Below are positions 1,491-34,691 of a stretch of 55,774 nt of DNA, piece by piece. Every line of letters starts with the position of its first letter. Position 1 is the first letter of the stretch. This DNA is from an uncultured Microbacterium sp. (GTDB lineage Bacteria; Actinomycetota; Actinomycetes; Actinomycetales; Microbacteriaceae), in NCBI GenBank assembly GCA_913774845.1, contig CAJYJO010000028.1:1-55774 (forward strand). Direction: 5' to 3'. The notes under the pieces were generated by a model. It saw only the letters and a list, made by a program, of their open reading frames with translations, ran no database searches and was not told where the DNA came from. The position numbers and the translations under genes were made by a program.

Positions 1491-1572
1491 GCGAAACTCC
1501 TGAGTTTCGGCGGCGGCAGAGGCCGAACAGCTCCACGCCGAACCCTCGCGCCACGTTTCTCAGGAGTTCTGC
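1491..1572. repeat. 82-bp palindromic element, family A copy 1
   Basis: Left end GCGAAACTCCTGAGTTTCGG, right end GTTTCTCAGGAGTTCTGC. The CAGGAGTT core sits 70 bp after the left end, exactly as in the five other copies (7571, 32300, 32450, 33469, 33681). The interior is not conserved between copies. Located between convergent genes. Confidence 0.8.
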
Positions 1573-7570: not shown

Positions 7571-7652
7571 GCCGAACTCCGGAGTTTTCGACGGCCCGCG
7601 CGCTGCCGGGTGTCCCGGGGCCGCGTTCGGCGCCGTTTTTCCGGAGTTCGGC
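7571..7652. repeat. 82-bp palindromic element, family A copy 2
   Basis: Left end GCCGAACTCCGGAGTTTTCG, right end TTTTTCCGGAGTTCGGC, same 82-bp length and 70-bp core spacing as copy 1. Located between the ABC exporter start and the MFS terminator. Confidence 0.8.
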
Positions 7653-29708: not shown

Positions 29709-31015
29709 CCTTTCGACAGGCTCAGGGACCGGTGGAGTCATATGACGCCGTCGACATCATCCGCGCGCAGCGCGACGGGCGACCGATCACCGAGGGCGAG
29801 ATCCGCTGGTTGGTCGACGCCTACACGCGTGGGTATGTCATGGACGCGCAGATGTCGGCGTTCACGATGGCGGTGCTGTTGAACGGTCTCGGCCGCGACC
29901 AGATCCGCGTCCTCACCGACGCGATGATCGCCTCGGGCGAGCGCATGGACTTCGGCTCGCTCGGCAAGGTCACCGTCGACAAGCACTCGACGGGTGGGGT
30001 CGGCGACAAGATCACGCTGCCGCTCGCGCCCCTGGTCGCCGCCTTCGGCGTCGCCGTCCCGCAGCTCTCGGGCCGCGGGCTCGGCCACACCGGCGGCACG
30101 CTCGACAAGCTCGAGTCGATCCCGGGCTGGCGGGCGGCGCTGTCGAACGACGAGATCATGGCGCAGCTGCGCGACGTGGGCGCGGTCATCTGCGCCGCGG
30201 GCACGGGCCTGGCCCCCGCCGACAAGAAGCTGTACGCGCTGCGCGACGTCACCGGCACCGTCGAGGCCATCCCGCTCATCGCGTCGAGCATCATGTCGAA
30301 GAAGATCGCCGAGGGCACCGACTCGCTCGTGCTCGACGTGAAGTTCGGCTCCGGTGCCTTCATGCAGGACATCGACCGCGCTCGCGAGCTCGCCGAGACG
30401 ATGGTCGCGCTCGGTACCGACTCGGGCGTGAACACCACGGCACTGCTCACCGACATGAACACCCCGCTCGGCCTGGCCATCGGCAACGCCAACGAGGTGC
30501 GCGAATCGGTCGAGGTGCTCGCCGGCGGCGGCCCCGCCGACGTCGTCGAGCTGACGGTCGCCCTCGCCCGCGAGATGCTGACGCTCGCGGGCAAGCCCGA
30601 CGCCGACGTCGAAGCCGCGCTGCAGGACGGCCGCGCGATGGACGTCTGGAACCGCATGATCCGCGCCCAGGACGGCGATCCGGATGCCGCGCTCCCCACG
30701 CCCCGCGAGACGCACACGGTCGTGGCCGAGCGCTCCGGCGTCGTCACGCGCGTCGAGGCGCTGCCCTTCGGCATCGGCGCCTGGCGCCTCGGTGCCGGCC
30801 GGGCTCGCGCCGAGGACGCCGTCGTGCACGCCGCGGGCATCGACCTGCACGTCACCGTCGGTCAGGCCGTGAGCGCCGGTCAGCCGTTGTTCACCCTGTC
30901 GGCGGACGATGAGTCGCGCTTCGAGCGCGCCCTCGGCGCCGTCGACGGCGCGCTCGAGATCGGCGACACCGCTCCCGCCGCCACCCCGATCGTGCGCGAG
31001 CGGATCACCGCCTGA
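29705..31015 (+). CDS. deoA: Thymidine phosphorylase, N-terminus derived from a repeat
   Basis: 436 residues. Splits thymidine (or deoxyuridine) with phosphate to base and deoxyribose 1-phosphate. The phosphate-site signature KHSTGGVGDKITL, the GRGLGHTGGTLDKLES loop and SSIMSKKIAEGTDS are present; three domains as in the family. The first nine residues, MTFRQAQGP, are translated from a family E repeat and have no counterpart in the usual short N-terminus. A GTG at 29732, after the repeat, would give the normal protein length. The 29705 start overlaps cdd (ATGA) and the stop overlaps the add start by one base. Confidence 0.92.
   Translation: MTFRQAQGPVESYDAVDIIRAQRDGRPITEGEIRWLVDAYTRGYVMDAQMSAFTMAVLLNGLGRDQIRVLTDAMIASGERMDFGSLGKVTVDKHSTGGVGDKITLPLAPLVAAFGVAVPQLSGRGLGHTGGTLDKLESIPGWRAALSNDEIMAQLRDVGAVICAAGTGLAPADKKLYALRDVTGTVEAIPLIASSIMSKKIAEGTDSLVLDVKFGSGAFMQDIDRARELAETMVALGTDSGVNTTALLTDMNTPLGLAIGNANEVRESVEVLAGGGPADVVELTVALAREMLTLAGKPDADVEAALQDGRAMDVWNRMIRAQDGDPDAALPTPRETHTVVAERSGVVTRVEALPFGIGAWRLGAGRARAEDAVVHAAGIDLHVTVGQAVSAGQPLFTLSADDESRFERALGAVDGALEIGDTAPAATPIVRERITA
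29707..29730. repeat. Family E hairpin repeat inside the deoA start
   Basis: Twenty-four bp matching the copy at 18826-18849 at nearly every position, with inverted ends. It spans the cdd stop region and the first codons of deoA. Confidence 0.8.
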
Positions 31016-32145
31016 TGGCATCCGGAAAGAAGGACACCGTGGCATCCGAGGACTTCCGTATCGGTCGCACGAGGATCGCCGACCTCCCCAAGGTGTCGCT
31101 GCACGATCACCTCGACGGGGGACTGCGTCCCCAGACGGTGCTCGAGCTGGCGGACGAGGTCGGTCTCGACCTGCCCGCCGACGACGCGAAGAGCCTCGAG
31201 GCGTGGTTCTCCGACCACATCGACGGCGGGTCTCTCGAGGACTACCTCGAGAAGTTCTCGGTCACGGTCGGCGTGATGCAGACCCGTGAGGGGCTCGTGC
31301 GCACGGCGAAGGAGTTCGTCGAGGACCTCGCCGCCGACGGCGTCGTGTACGGCGAGGTGCGGTGGGCTCCCGAGCAGCACCTCACCCGCGGTCTCACCCT
31401 CGACGAGGTCGTCGACGCCGTGCAGGAGGGCATCGAAGAGGGAGAGGATGCCGCTGACGCCCGCGGACACGACATCCGGGTCGGTCAGCTGCTCACGGCG
31501 ATGCGTCACACCGACAACTCGCGCGAGATCGCCGAGCTCGCCGTCGCCTGGCGCGGACGGGGCGTCGTCGGGTTCGACCTCGCCGGAGCCGAGGACGGGT
31601 TCCTCCCCAGCCGTCACCGCGCGGCGTTCGAGTACCTCGCCGAGCAATTCTTCCCGACGACGGTGCACGCGGGCGAGGGTGCCGGCCTGGCATCCATCCG
31701 CTCCGCGCTCATCGACGGACGCGCGCTGCGCCTCGGTCACGGCGTGCGCATCGCCAACGACCTCGACGTCGTCTCGCGCGAGGGCGAGGAGGTGCAGGTC
31801 ACGTTCGGCGACCTGGCCCGCTGGGTGCGCGATCGCGAGATCACCCTCGAGCTGTCGCCGACGTCGAACCTGCAGTCGGGAGCGGTGACGGCCTGGGGCG
31901 ACACGATGGACGCCCACCCCTTCGACCTGCTGTACCAGCTCGACTTCTCGGTCACCGTGAACGTCGACAACCGCCTCATGAGCGCGACGACGCTCACGCG
32001 CGAGCTGGGGCTGCTGGCCCAGGCGTTCGACTACGACCTCGACGACCTCGAGGCGTTCCAGCTCAACGCCGCCGCCGGTGCGTTCCTCCCGGTGGAGGAG
32101 CGCGAGGAGCTCATCGAGATCATCTCGGAGGGTTTCGGGCGCTGA
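31015..32145 (+). CDS. add: Adenosine deaminase
   Basis: 376 residues, TIM-barrel amidohydrolase that turns adenosine and deoxyadenosine into the inosines. Metal ligands HDHLDGG (near residue 28), the HAGEGAG zinc histidine, the catalytic RLGHGVRIAND histidine and the ELSPTSNLQSGAV segment are all present. The ATG overlaps the deoA stop (TGATG). The first dozen residues, MASGKKDTVASE, are loose; a GTG nine codons in could also be used. Last gene of the salvage block; a strong terminator follows. Confidence 0.94.
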   Translation: MASGKKDTVASEDFRIGRTRIADLPKVSLHDHLDGGLRPQTVLELADEVGLDLPADDAKSLEAWFSDHIDGGSLEDYLEKFSVTVGVMQTREGLVRTAKEFVEDLAADGVVYGEVRWAPEQHLTRGLTLDEVVDAVQEGIEEGEDAADARGHDIRVGQLLTAMRHTDNSREIAELAVAWRGRGVVGFDLAGAEDGFLPSRHRAAFEYLAEQFFPTTVHAGEGAGLASIRSALIDGRALRLGHGVRIANDLDVVSREGEEVQVTFGDLARWVRDREITLELSPTSNLQSGAVTAWGDTMDAHPFDLLYQLDFSVTVNVDNRLMSATTLTRELGLLAQAFDYDLDDLEAFQLNAAAGAFLPVEEREELIEIISEGFGR

Positions 32146-32156
32146 ACCGCGGTTTC

Positions 32157-32190
32157 GAGGCGCGCACCCGGTCGGGTGCGCGCCTCTTGG
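32157..32190 (+). terminator. Terminator of the nucleoside salvage operon
   Basis: Perfect 14-bp stem GAGGCGCGCACCCG (32157-32170) with CGGGTGCGCGCCTC (32173-32186), then TT. Twelve bp past the add stop. Confidence 0.75.
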
Positions 32191-32299
32191 CGTTCTGCGG
32201 GGGTGGGCGTTGCGGGGCTGGGTCGTGCGGGGGTTGGCCGTGCGGGGCGGGGCCGTGTGGCGCGGTGCGGGGCTGGGCCGTGTGGGGCCGCGCTGGCGG

Positions 32300-32381
32300 G
32301 CGAAACTCCGGAGATCCGTGGCGGAGAGGCCGTGTAGGTGCCGATTTCGGTCATGACTGCGCGGTTTCTCAGGAGTTCGGC
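32300..32381. repeat. 82-bp palindromic element, family A copy 3
   Basis: Ends GCGAAACTCCGGAG and GTTTCTCAGGAGTTCGGC; core spacing 70 bp. The rest of the 373-bp gap 32146-32518 is G-rich reiterated TGCGGGGCTGGG-like sequence without a credible gene. Confidence 0.8.
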
Positions 32382-32449
32382 ACGCGTCCGGGCTCGCGAG
32401 GGGAGGACGAGATCGGCCGATGCGGATTGGACGGGGCCGACCGCGGCGC

Positions 32450-32531
32450 GCGAAACTCCGGAGAAATCGGCGCGCGGGGTCGACAACAGCGCCTGCGGCG
32501 GGATGGGAGCGCGAGAAGTCAGGAGTTTCGA
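32450..32531. repeat. 82-bp palindromic element, family A copy 4 (inverted orientation)
   Basis: Left end GCGAAACTCCGGAGAAAT, right end AAGTCAGGAGTTTCGA. The asymmetric inner bases (GAGAAA left, CTTCT right) show it lies opposite to the other copies whose orientation can be read. Its right end overlaps the stop codon of the DUF559 gene at 32519. Confidence 0.8.
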
Positions 32532-33367
32532 CCGGGTGCGCCGTGGGCGAGGATGCGCTCAAGCGCGGCGCGCACCCGGTCGGGGTGGTAGAGGATGTCC
32601 TCGGCGAGCAGTCGGAGCGTCGTATAGCCGCGTTCCAGTGCCGCCATGTCACGGCGCCGGTCGTTCTTGTGCATCTGCCAGGTGCCGTGGAATCGCTCGC
32701 TGTCGCACTCGACGATGAGCCATCCGTTGATCAGGAGGTCGACGCGGCCCACCCCGCCGATGCGGACCTGCAGCTCGACACGACATCCGAGCGGACGCAG
32801 TAACAGTCGCACGAGCGATTCAGTGCCCGCCTCGGCGCGCGGGTCCACCAGGCGACGCAGCACCTGGAAGCGGCGCGGAACCCGGGCGAACACCTCGTCG
32901 ATGTCGGCCTCGCTGACCACCCCCAAGTGCCAGGCGCTGTCGAGGGTGGCGACCGCCGATCGCGGAGGTTGACAGCGGATAGCCTGAGCGAGGGCCTCCA
33001 CGACGTCGACCGCGAGTCCGTCTCGCGCGGCCGATGACGCACGCCAGTGGTAGACGACACCGCGGGGTGCGGGAGGCCGTCGACTGGCTGGCGGATCCTG
33101 CTGGATATGACGGTCCGCCTGTCGGTGAATGAACACGCCGCGCACGGCGAGAAGGCTGACGCAGTCAAGTCTCCCGCCGGCGCGGGCGGCTTCGACGAAG
33201 TCCTCCTGTGTGCCGGCCCCCACGAATCGCCCTTGTCGTACACGCAAGAGGCTGCCGTCCGCGAGGGCACGGTCGATTGCCCTGCGCGACCATCCGGCGA
33301 TGAGGAGTTCGCGCGTCGTCCACACTCGCTCGGGGTTCTCAGCGGGACGGGGCGGCAGGGAAACCAT
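32519..33367 (-). CDS. AbiEi-like winged helix plus DUF559 (Vsr-like nuclease fold) protein
   Basis: 282 residues. The N-terminal 50 residues (TTRELLIAGWSRRAIDRALADG, then LLRVRQGRFV) match the AbiEi-type winged-helix start. The C-terminal part is a DUF559 domain: GTESLVRLLL, then GRVDLLINGWLIVECD, then RRRDMAALERGYTTLRL, the glutamate-aspartate-E.D layout of the PD-(D/E)XK/Vsr nuclease fold with its acidic residues kept. Substrate and role are unknown; such proteins are common in actinobacteria, often annotated as very-short-patch-repair-like. No toxin partner adjoins it. Four of the six family A repeats in the window lie within 1.1 kb of it and one supplies its stop codon. CAGGGT lies 6 nt before the ATG. 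Confidence 0.8.
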   Translation of the reverse strand: MVSLPPRPAENPERVWTTRELLIAGWSRRAIDRALADGSLLRVRQGRFVGAGTQEDFVEAARAGGRLDCVSLLAVRGVFIHRQADRHIQQDPPASRRPPAPRGVVYHWRASSAARDGLAVDVVEALAQAIRCQPPRSAVATLDSAWHLGVVSEADIDEVFARVPRRFQVLRRLVDPRAEAGTESLVRLLLRPLGCRVELQVRIGGVGRVDLLINGWLIVECDSERFHGTWQMHKNDRRRDMAALERGYTTLRLLAEDILYHPDRVRAALERILAHGAPGRNS

Positions 33368-33468
33368 CAGCCCACCCTGGCCGTCTCAGCCGCTCCATGG
33401 CGGCGGCGAGGGCCCGCGGCTGTGGATAACGGGGCTGGGGAGGACAGGTCGGGGCCGACCCGGCGTGT

Positions 33469-33550
33469 GCGAAAGTCCTGAGTTTTCGGCGGTTCCGGGC
33501 TGTTAAGGGGTTTTCCGGGCGCGCAGGTGCGTGTTTCTCAGGAGTTCCGC
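33469..33550. repeat. 82-bp palindromic element, family A copy 5
   Basis: Left end GCGAAAGTCCTGAGTTTTCG, right end TTTCTCAGGAGTTCCGC; core spacing 70 bp. About 100 bp upstream of the DUF559 start codon. Confidence 0.8.
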
Positions 33551-33559
33551 TGGGGGCTG

Positions 33560-33660
33560 CGGCCGGGCGGCCGCCCCGCCCGCCCCCGGCCCGCCCGCCC
33601 CCCGGCCCGCCCCGGACCCGCCCCGGCTCGCCCGGCCCGCCCGGTCTGCCTCAGCCCGTT
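33560..33660. repeat. C-rich low-complexity tract
   Basis: Short reiterations of CCCGCCC and CCGGCCCGCC between two family A copies; a similar tract (GGCGCCCACCCGG units) lies at 33800-33890. The complementary strand is G-run rich. Nothing gene-like is visible in 33368-33908. Confidence 0.5.
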
Positions 33661-33680
33661 CCGGGGTCGATCCCTTTCGC

Positions 33681-33762
33681 GCGAAACTCCTGACTTTTCG
33701 TCCGCGGCGGGCTGCTCGCGGGGTTTTCGGGCATGTGTGTGCGGGTTTTTCAGGAGTTTCGC
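33681..33762. repeat. 82-bp palindromic element, family A copy 6
   Basis: Left end GCGAAACTCCTGACTTTTCG, right end TTTTTCAGGAGTTTCGC; core spacing 70 bp. Confidence 0.8.
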
Positions 33763-33908
33763 TCGGGTGGAAGGTCACCGGCCCGCCCCCCGCCCGCGCC
33801 CCTATCCTCCCGGCGCCCGCTCCATCCCGCCCGGCGCCCACCCGGCCCGGCGCCCACCCGGCCCCGGCCCCCGCACCCCCGCGCGCGGCGGCGCCGCGGC
33901 GCCCCCGG

Positions 33909-34691
33909 CTACGGCCGCGGCAGAAAGCCGGCCAGCTCCTCGGCGATCACCCGATCCACCTCGGCCGGGTCGGCGGTCGGCGTGCCGTCGCCCGGCTGGG
34001 GGCCGTAAGCGCCGAAGGACGCGTGGGAAGCGCCGGGGATCTCGACGAAGGTGGCGTTCGCGGGCAGTTCGGCCTTGGCATCCGCGATCTTCTGGGGAGT
34101 GCTCAAGCCGTCTTCCGAACCGGACAGGCTCAGCACGGGGATGCCGGATGCCGAGAGGTCGTTCGCGCAGTACGAGGCGAAGAGCACGAGGGCATCGGCG
34201 TCGCTCGCGAGCTGACACGCGCGCACGCCGCCGAGCGAGTGCCCGCCGACGGCCCAGGTCGAGACGCCCGGGGCGAGGTCTGTGAAGGTCGACAGTGGGC
34301 GGGGGTCGAAGAAGGCGAGGTTCAGCCAGGGCTTGGTGATCACGACCGTGACCCCGTCGTCGACGACCGTATCGGCGAGGGTGGCGATGTACCCCTCGGC
34401 CTGCACCTTGGCTCCCGGGATGAACACCAGACCCTGGCCGGTCGCACCTTCGGTGGGTGAGAGCACGATGCCCGCGCCGTCGTCGGTGATCGTCAGAGCG
34501 GGGTTCGCCCTCGCGTCGGCGAGCGGGCCGGGTTCGGCCCCCATGACCCCGACCTGGCTGTAGATCAGGATGCCGCCGACGAGCAGCACCACGACAGCGC
34601 CCAGCCCCCCGAGGGTCCACCGCAGCCATCGCCGCCGCCGACGCGGAGCGGGGGAGGGAGCGGAGTCGGCGGGGGCCTCGCGGTCGGTCAC
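33909..34691 (-). CDS. Membrane-anchored alpha/beta hydrolase
   Basis: 260 residues. An arginine-rich segment (PRRRRRWLRW) is followed by one membrane helix at about residues 26-47, so the hydrolase domain probably faces the outside. The nucleophile elbow is GGHSLGG; later GSEDG and GASHASFG hold the probable acid and histidine. The fold resembles dienelactone hydrolase/chlorophyllase-like proteins; the substrate is unknown. The GTG at 34691 is chosen because TACGCT lies 6 nt before it and the protein then starts just before the basic anchor. It is separated from mtlD by a terminator and is not part of the mannitol operon. Confidence 0.8.
   Translation of the reverse strand: MTDREAPADSAPSPAPRRRRRWLRWTLGGLGAVVVLLVGGILIYSQVGVMGAEPGPLADARANPALTITDDGAGIVLSPTEGATGQGLVFIPGAKVQAEGYIATLADTVVDDGVTVVITKPWLNLAFFDPRPLSTFTDLAPGVSTWAVGGHSLGGVRACQLASDADALVLFASYCANDLSASGIPVLSLSGSEDGLSTPQKIADAKAELPANATFVEIPGASHASFGAYGPQPGDGTPTADPAEVDRVIAEELAGFLPRP

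Follow-up and report, generated by a model that had tools for sequence, protein, structure and literature searches.

The 55,774-nucleotide stretch of DNA from an uncultured Microbacterium sp. analysed here (contig CAJYJO010000028.1; referred to as the window) carries a gene for a predicted nuclease that is bracketed by four copies of an 82-bp element with inverted ends. The gene (32519..33367, minus strand) is an open frame of 282 amino acids, with an N-terminal AbiEi-like winged helix-turn-helix (wHTH), a middle region, and a C-terminal MTES_1575/DUF559 domain. Based on comparisons with related genomes, the best explanation, to which we assign a probability of roughly 0.64, is two-site recognition of a private element by this chromosomal wHTH and Vsr-type nuclease. 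A cognate relation between gene and element is supported, because the bracketing recurs among relatives, dispersed copies match those at the gene, the short lineage tags in the element ends follow the gene tree, and a segment of the protein tracks the tag. It seems that protein and repeats co-evolve, forming a DNA-recognition system.

All four gene-flanking copies are exactly 82 bp long, with ends near GCGAAACTCC(T/G)GA...TC(A/C)GGAGTTTCGC. Two lie on the 3' side of the gene (32300..32381 and 32450..32531), the second overlapping the 3' end of the gene and holding the stop codon in its arm (...R-N-S-stop, CGA AAC TCC TGA), and two lie on the 5' side, at 33469..33550, about 100 bp before the start codon, and at 33681..33762. 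Two other copies were found in the window, one between convergent genes (1491..1572) and one at 7571..7652 (GCCGAACTCCGGA...TCCGGAGTTCGGC). A preliminary description of this DNA had given the four copies at the gene and mentioned two others, and this was borne out; it had also called the element palindromic, which is true of the ends but not of the interior. With at most 2 mismatches allowed, 12 occurrences of the end word were counted in the window, where 1.13 were expected and none of 100 shuffles reached 12. The fixed-length two-ended pattern, allowing up to 3 mismatches, found 12 elements in the organism's own genome (3.37 Mb) and the reversed pattern found none; a scan over a range of spacings (30 own-genome loci and the window) gave 6 elements, all of a single length. 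A second AbiEi-like gene with repeats of its own had been reported in the window as well. This gene was not recovered: the family profile finds one gene, a de novo scan for paired elements with matching ends finds this family alone, and among 10 other open reading frames of the window that were tested, 8 have other domains and 2 have none. G/T-rich repeats of about 15 bp (32196-32299) adjoin the outermost element, and the tandem elements of genome G073 have similar filler.

Within the genus, 149 genomes were screened with a homolog cut-off of E ≤1e-20, and 128 of them have a homolog; the named relatives are nearly all Microbacterium. Same-ended elements with inverted ends were present on both sides of the gene at 27 of 30 genus loci, a set with no control (the three misses are L076, which is short, L077, and L082). 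In a named set of 80 loci, of which 78 were testable, 53 were bracketed, compared to 0 of 69 window pairs taken at a distance of 3.8 to 4.5 kb and 28 of 379 mis-paired flanks. Because the locus sets overlap and some rows are the same genomes, the counts of 27/30 and 53/78, and that of 58/110 for the neighbouring adenosine deaminase given below, are not independent; in the set used for the tree, 104 of 110 rows differ. A family-wide draw found a homolog at 1e-15 in 77 of 120 genomes and in 60 of the 85 genera sampled. At loci from other genera bracketing was seen in 13 of 28 cases (four resting on one word pair, and one locus being short), compared to 5 of 273 mis-paired ones. Distant paralogs had their own, different elements in 18 of 30 raw matches, a set without a control in which the L244 match is an artefact of overlap on a short contig, that in L254 is purine-rich and doubtful, and several loci repeat genes of the genus survey. 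Eleven genomes (G007, G018, G019, G037, G062, G080, G081, G119, G129, G137, and G144) have two paralogs 17.6 to 22.7 kb apart in opposite orientation, with the plus-strand copy first, which suggests a second conserved locus.

Inverted repeats are abundant in bacterial intergenic DNA, and one might therefore suppose that ordinary GC-rich hairpins or terminators are linked to this gene passively or by chance. The controls refute this supposition, to which we give practically no weight. In addition to the lack of bracketing in distant windows, the reversed fixed-length pattern had no match in the 149 genomes, a variable-gap pattern matched 618 times compared to 33 times for its reversed version, 12 permuted words gave 0 to 8 elements each compared to 174 for the real word, and the elements do not fold internally.

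In the majority of elements the end word consists of AACTCC and, after it, a tag that varies with the lineage (TGA, GGA, TCA, TCC, TGC, TTC, ACG, or others). On the tree of 58 labelled genes the tag requires 20 changes, whereas 200 shuffles gave a mean of 38.8 and a minimum of 34; L102 was left out of this analysis and of the residue-tag and independent-pairs analyses below. Dispersed copies follow the resident gene. In G084, which has 51 elements, every one of the 50 that are listed carries TCA at one or both ends, and 48 of them span 73 to 74 bp. In G054, which has 41, every one of the 25 listed carries TCC at one or both ends and has a span of 63 to 64 bp. Both genomes were counted with a pattern in which the first tag base was fixed as T. 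In both, the tag and span of the listed dispersed copies are those of the resident bracketed gene. All 8 elements in G013 and the 13 that are listed of the 14 in G081 also carry the gene's tag on at least one end. At least four AACTCCT elements are present in 30 of 46 genomes with a close gene (E ≤1e-75) compared to 13 of 103 others (Fisher test, 2e-10, ancestry not corrected), and at least four elements are present in 41 of 128 genomes with any gene at 1e-20 compared to 2 of 21 (p 0.04). G007 has 8 AACTCCT elements and a best gene with CGCTCC-type elements, together with two further paralogs. In G048, G081, and G137 one arm lies within a conserved coding stretch (GTGGAGGAGTT), which we take to be rdgB-like, and the other arm lies 73 to 74 bp off with a different tag in each genome, a possible case of tag turnover in place.

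Pfam searches with the 282-residue protein gave matches to the MTES_1575 restriction endonuclease (REase) domain (E 4.8e-8), to AbiEi_4 (E 4.8e-4; residues 17 to 46, 33230..33319, minus strand), and to DUF559 (E 0.0098), none of which reaches the curated cut-off. In an alignment of relatives all 22 members match MTES_1575 at E ≤0.01, and 16 match AbiEi_4. The conserved D, ExD, H nuclease motif of Vsr/DUF559-fold nucleases is present in all 22 homologs, with E183, D210, E220-x-D222, and H227 (32687..32821, minus strand) unchanged; we presume that these residues are assigned correctly to the motif and are catalytic, after the Vsr and DUF559 families. The protein also matches the solved structure 3hrl (Endonuclease-Like Protein) with an E value of 0.002. 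The three Pfam domains above are the only ones matched at E ≤1, and no HUH/Y1 tyrosine transposase is among them. The MTES_1575 domain is named as a novel Vsr-type REase in PMC3710099.

When the columns of the protein alignment were scored against the tag, residue 95 stood out for base 7 (z 17.0, next column 8.1) and residue 90 for base 9 (z 13.6, followed by residue 92 with 9.3). Residues 92 and 93 rank top for the whole tag, and the leading columns for base 8 are residues 253 and 186. R92 is present in 20 of 26 genes with C at base 9 compared to 3 of 32 others, and of three independent pairs for this combination, on average 2.3 went the same way and 0.0 the opposite way. Residues 90 to 95 (Q-D-P-P-A-S; 33083..33100, minus strand) can thus be regarded as a candidate tag-specificity segment.

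The geometry of the elements gives an indication of how they may be recognized. The 174- and 91-element sets come partly from the fixed-spacing pattern and are partly preselected by spacing, which is why the length result is taken from the gene-anchored loci. The 110 gene-anchored loci contain 117 distinct AACTCC elements, and 114 of these fall into four classes of span between the outer AACTCC ends: 63 to 64 bp (25 elements), 73 to 75 bp (84), 86 to 87 bp (2), and 95 to 96 bp (3), with 3 others. These classes step by about one helical turn. In the 91 non-redundant span-74 elements the interior is unconserved, mirror positions pair about as expected past position 10, and interior folding has a z value of -0.15. 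The A/T content of these elements has maxima at positions 12, 22-23, and 32-33 and at their mirrors, with a period-10 power of 0.333, compared to a maximum of 0.014 in 2000 shuffles and at most 0.007 in flanking DNA. The rhythm was also seen in the gene-anchored subset (n = 55; 0.316, compared to 0.034 in shuffles) and in 22 span-73 elements (0.330, compared to 0.067). From the A/T phasing and the stepped lengths we infer that double-stranded DNA is bent round a protein, and the unpaired interior with its 10-bp A/T rhythm points to such a complex rather than to a repetitive extragenic palindromic (REP) hairpin. A hairpin or RNA reading was rejected on the same pairing and folding values, and Rfam gave no match over 32000-34000.

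Most elements lie outside genes. Of 83 elements, 74 are intergenic (38 in tandem, 29 in convergent, and 7 in divergent spacers), compared to 20% of random positions in the same loci, 77% of which fall inside genes; the table was made with a home-made gene caller and includes gene-adjacent copies and a few repeated or overlapping entries. This distribution is relevant to the alternative that the protein is an AbiEi-like autoregulator, with the elements as long looping operators, the dispersed copies as its regulon, and the nuclease fold as structural or secondary. Looping repressors typically have helically phased half-sites, as seen here, the start codon is preceded by an element at a distance of about 100 bp or more, and in a few cases an element overlaps a gene start or a promoter-like stretch. 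According to PMC7319586, AbiEi proteins bend DNA and bind to inverted repeats within their own promoter. However, elements also lie on the 3' side, overlapping or just beyond the stop codon, the dispersed copies are not enriched in divergent-promoter spacers (7/83), and up to 56 copies with tandem arrays can be present. The element-bounded similarity of distant copies described below would remain unexplained as well, and the nuclease motif is invariant (22/22). We regard such an operator function as quite improbable, and a classical promoter-operator reading in particular is weakened by the element context. In G014, G042, G071, and G106 a conserved promoter-like stretch (TTGACGTTACCACGG...GTGAACATG) is overlain by an element of the same length as elsewhere.

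The N-terminal wHTH is similar to that of AbiEi from type IV AbiE systems, the DNA-bending protein of PMC7319586, but here there is a C-terminal nuclease domain and the half-sites are six to nine turns apart and dispersed genome-wide. A gene for the AbiEii (nucleotidyltransferase) toxin was not found adjacent, the tested neighbours having other domains.

Tandem copies are common, mostly 115 to 340 bp apart. The 45 span-74 elements of G084 (from the 50 listed) form 951 pairs more than 5 kb apart, of which 20 have an interior identity of at least 70%, where 200 column shuffles averaged 0.15 such pairs and never exceeded 3; the distant pairs, which trace to a small number of tandem groups, are not independent. 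Eight such pairs, from three site groups 0.07 to 1.1 Mb apart, were aligned. Their interiors are 72 to 82% identical, and their flanks mostly drop to 23 to 46% within a few bases of the element ends, the exceptions being one right flank with 59% and two pairs with a gene-bracketing copy that keep right-flank similarity for about 35 bases. As the interiors are alike but the flanks are not, the comparison indicates that the element was copied or converted between distant sites as a unit and not as part of a longer segment. The preliminary description had proposed that the gene is a trans-acting partner that spreads or maintains the element. A cognate partner is supported, and unit copying was seen in G084; the part of the protein in that copying is hypothetical.

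Several results weigh against the proposed partnership. Shared ancestry is incompletely accounted for in the gene-element correlations and inflates the residue-tag scores in all columns, and the independent-pairs tests have just one to four supported pairs each. The A/T rhythm is weaker in 14 span-63 elements, where 4 of 2000 shuffles match it. Short gene conversion between existing elements could equally give the element-bounded similarity in G084. At least 8 elements are present in 23 of 128 genomes with any gene at 1e-20 and in 2 of 21 without (p 0.53), which is no difference. Orphan elements, in 10 to 17 copies, occur in G009, G092, G071, G103, and G016 with no examined homolog bracketed by that element, although some of these assemblies are fragmented and some of the listed homologs lie outside the examined loci. 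G131 (72% complete) has 9 copies and no homolog at 1e-20, and G070, with a TGA-type gene, carries 3 CGCTCC-type elements, G000 carrying 1. Two of the outcomes that the preliminary description named as contrary to its proposal were thus found in part, these orphan-rich genomes among them. It had also expected precise 82-bp empty sites between strains. Eight dispersed G073 sites were fetched and compared in G000, and none of the 7 comparable ones is a clean empty site: 2 are shared intact, 1 is shared with altered ends and copy number, 2 are degenerate, and 2 are absent in rearranged DNA. Copy number differs at shared G073/G000 sites (3 versus 1 and 1 versus 2). At L228 (about 2190-2450), a single standard element in G073 corresponds to two in G000, which stand in tandem, are near-identical, and have altered ends (CCGAACTCCGGAA...TCCGGAGTCCGG). 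Across five G000/G073 site pairs the arms are identical at 117 of 125 positions and the interiors at 217 of 270, a comparison that is biased because the sites were partly found by their arms.

The gene and its elements behave as a cassette at a conserved locus. In the window this stretch lies between an adenosine deaminase gene (31015..32145, plus strand), which is a conserved neighbour by domain match and locus comparison, and an alpha/beta hydrolase gene (33909..34592, minus strand; domain match). The deaminase is within the locus stretch in 58 of 110 loci, some of which are the same genomes, regardless of tag, and pyrimidine phosphorylase and mannitol dehydrogenase genes are often near the deaminase loci. 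Where the deaminase is 93 to 98% identical to that of the window, the nuclease is either 79 to 95% identical with TGA elements or 56 to 60% identical with CGCTCC-type elements. In G024 the stretch corresponding to 32203..33909 (elements, gene, elements) is missing: the counterparts of window positions 32202 and 33910 are just 122 bp apart with no gene and no elements between them, and elsewhere in this genome two patterns found no element and no homolog was found at 1e-20. The locus is also empty in G009, yet that genome has 11 elements and just two distant homologs elsewhere. G103 and G016 have the CGCTCC cassette. Both contain 3 elements of this type, with 2 next to the gene, and they also have 13 and 10 TGA/GGA-type elements, respectively. 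The whole gene-and-elements cassette is clearly a polymorphic unit, and cassette replacement that leaves orphans would be the simplest account of these genomes. A freely moving transposon carrying its own gene is weakened as a candidate by the conserved deaminase locus. Beside the deaminase in G063, G072, G006, G024, and G009 (L317-L320 and L322, e.g., L320 at about 2695-2760) there is a different palindromic intergenic repeat, approximately GAGTGTCCA...TGGACACTC.

Such a presence-absence pattern could also be produced by homing, in which the nuclease cuts the cassette-less allele, recombination copies in the elements and gene together, and the elements mark or protect the borders. EDxHD is counted among homing endonuclease families in the literature, and cassettes seem to have been swapped between relatives whose deaminases are 93 to 97% and nuclease proteins 56 to 60% identical. 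The comparison with L112 (M. testaceum NS283) is also in line with homing, as flanking DNA is 88% identical to that of the window as far as L112 position 4791 and again from 6028 onwards, identity breaking within about 10 bp of the outer element ends of L112, between which the gene core alone aligns. With L099 the break on one side is about 30 bp further out, and on the window side homology breaks 101 to 113 bp outside the elements, which does not fit elements that define the borders. Homing also leaves the dozens of gene-less copies elsewhere unexplained, and the empty G024 locus has no such element. We consider it unlikely.

A variable cassette at a fixed locus may also call to mind defence or self/non-self recognition, with elements that mark self or serve as decoys to restrain or inhibit a toxic nuclease, and with an arms race behind the diversity of the cassettes. 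A defence library gave weak matches of the protein to AbiEi (E 0.0021) and DpdF (E 0.033). However, no toxin or antitoxin partner is adjacent, the tested neighbours being adenosine deaminase, pyrimidine phosphorylase, alpha/beta hydrolase, and mannitol dehydrogenase, and homologs outside chromosomes are few (4 plasmid records and 1 phage record), none covering 80% of the query. This function is very improbable in our view.

Two-site recognition of a private element accommodates more of these results. The protein would be a chromosomal, mostly vertically inherited wHTH and Vsr-type nuclease that binds both inverted end words simultaneously, on the same helix face and six to nine turns apart. 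The element would be recognized as double-stranded DNA, with the intervening DNA bent round the complex. All elements, whether bracketing or dispersed, would belong to a single population of cognate sites, with an end word that follows the specificity of the protein, and old elements would stay as orphans when a cassette is replaced or lost. Direct binding of the element by the protein is likely, and nuclease action on the element is plausible. That this action drives copying and tandem amplification, a role ascribed to RAYTs in the case of REPINs, is an unproven analogy.

There is a close parallel with REP-associated tyrosine transposases (RAYTs). As described in PMC3116915, a RAYT gene (TnpA-REP) is flanked by inverted-pair repeats, is single-copy, and is seemingly unable to move itself. 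Likewise, our nuclease gene is flanked by its own fixed-spacing inverted-pair repeats, which are extragenic and often in tandem clusters, as REPINs are, and which are copied as units between sites (in G084 only, with gene conversion as an alternative). The differences are that this protein combines a Vsr/MTES_1575 domain with a wHTH and has no Y1/HUH domain, and that the interior is unpaired with no long hairpin, the helical-turn lengths and phased A/T suggesting double-stranded recognition. The RAYT-like character put forward in the preliminary description is supported as an analogy, in the flanked gene and paired repeats, but the system is not a RAYT. It shares with miniature inverted-repeat transposable elements and insertion sequences the short length, inverted ends, many copies, and unit-precise copying between distant sites, but most dispersed interiors have diverged with their ends kept, lengths follow strict helical classes, no clean insertion was seen, and the gene lies beside the same neighbour in 58/110 loci. 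The Vsr-like/DUF559/EDxHD and MTES_1575 REases have the same nuclease domain (22/22 members), but no published link between them and a repeat element surfaced in the open-licence papers searched. Nor did we find such a nuclease-repeat system among the open-licence papers searched on DUF559, MTES_1575, repeats of Microbacteriaceae or Microbacterium, or actinobacterial REP nucleases.

With slightly better than even odds, we propose for the Microbacteriaceae a large chromosomal nuclease family in which each lineage has a private double-stranded address, made of an end word and a whole-turn spacing round a bent complex, with a variable protein segment reading the word. Successive cassettes would take the same locus, seed unit copies, and leave orphans, a RAYT/REPIN-like lifestyle that would have arisen independently, with a restriction-type fold and no single-stranded hairpins. 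If this is true, it would be a second solution, unrelated to RAYTs, for the joint persistence of short repeats and a domesticated nuclease in bacterial chromosomes, and it would give a function to common genes that are now annotated as AbiEi-antitoxin-like or DUF559. It would also provide a readable recognition code, as specificity could be tested directly on the dozens of protein/tag/spacing pairs that occur naturally, and it might yield two-site DNA-binding proteins of choosable specificity.

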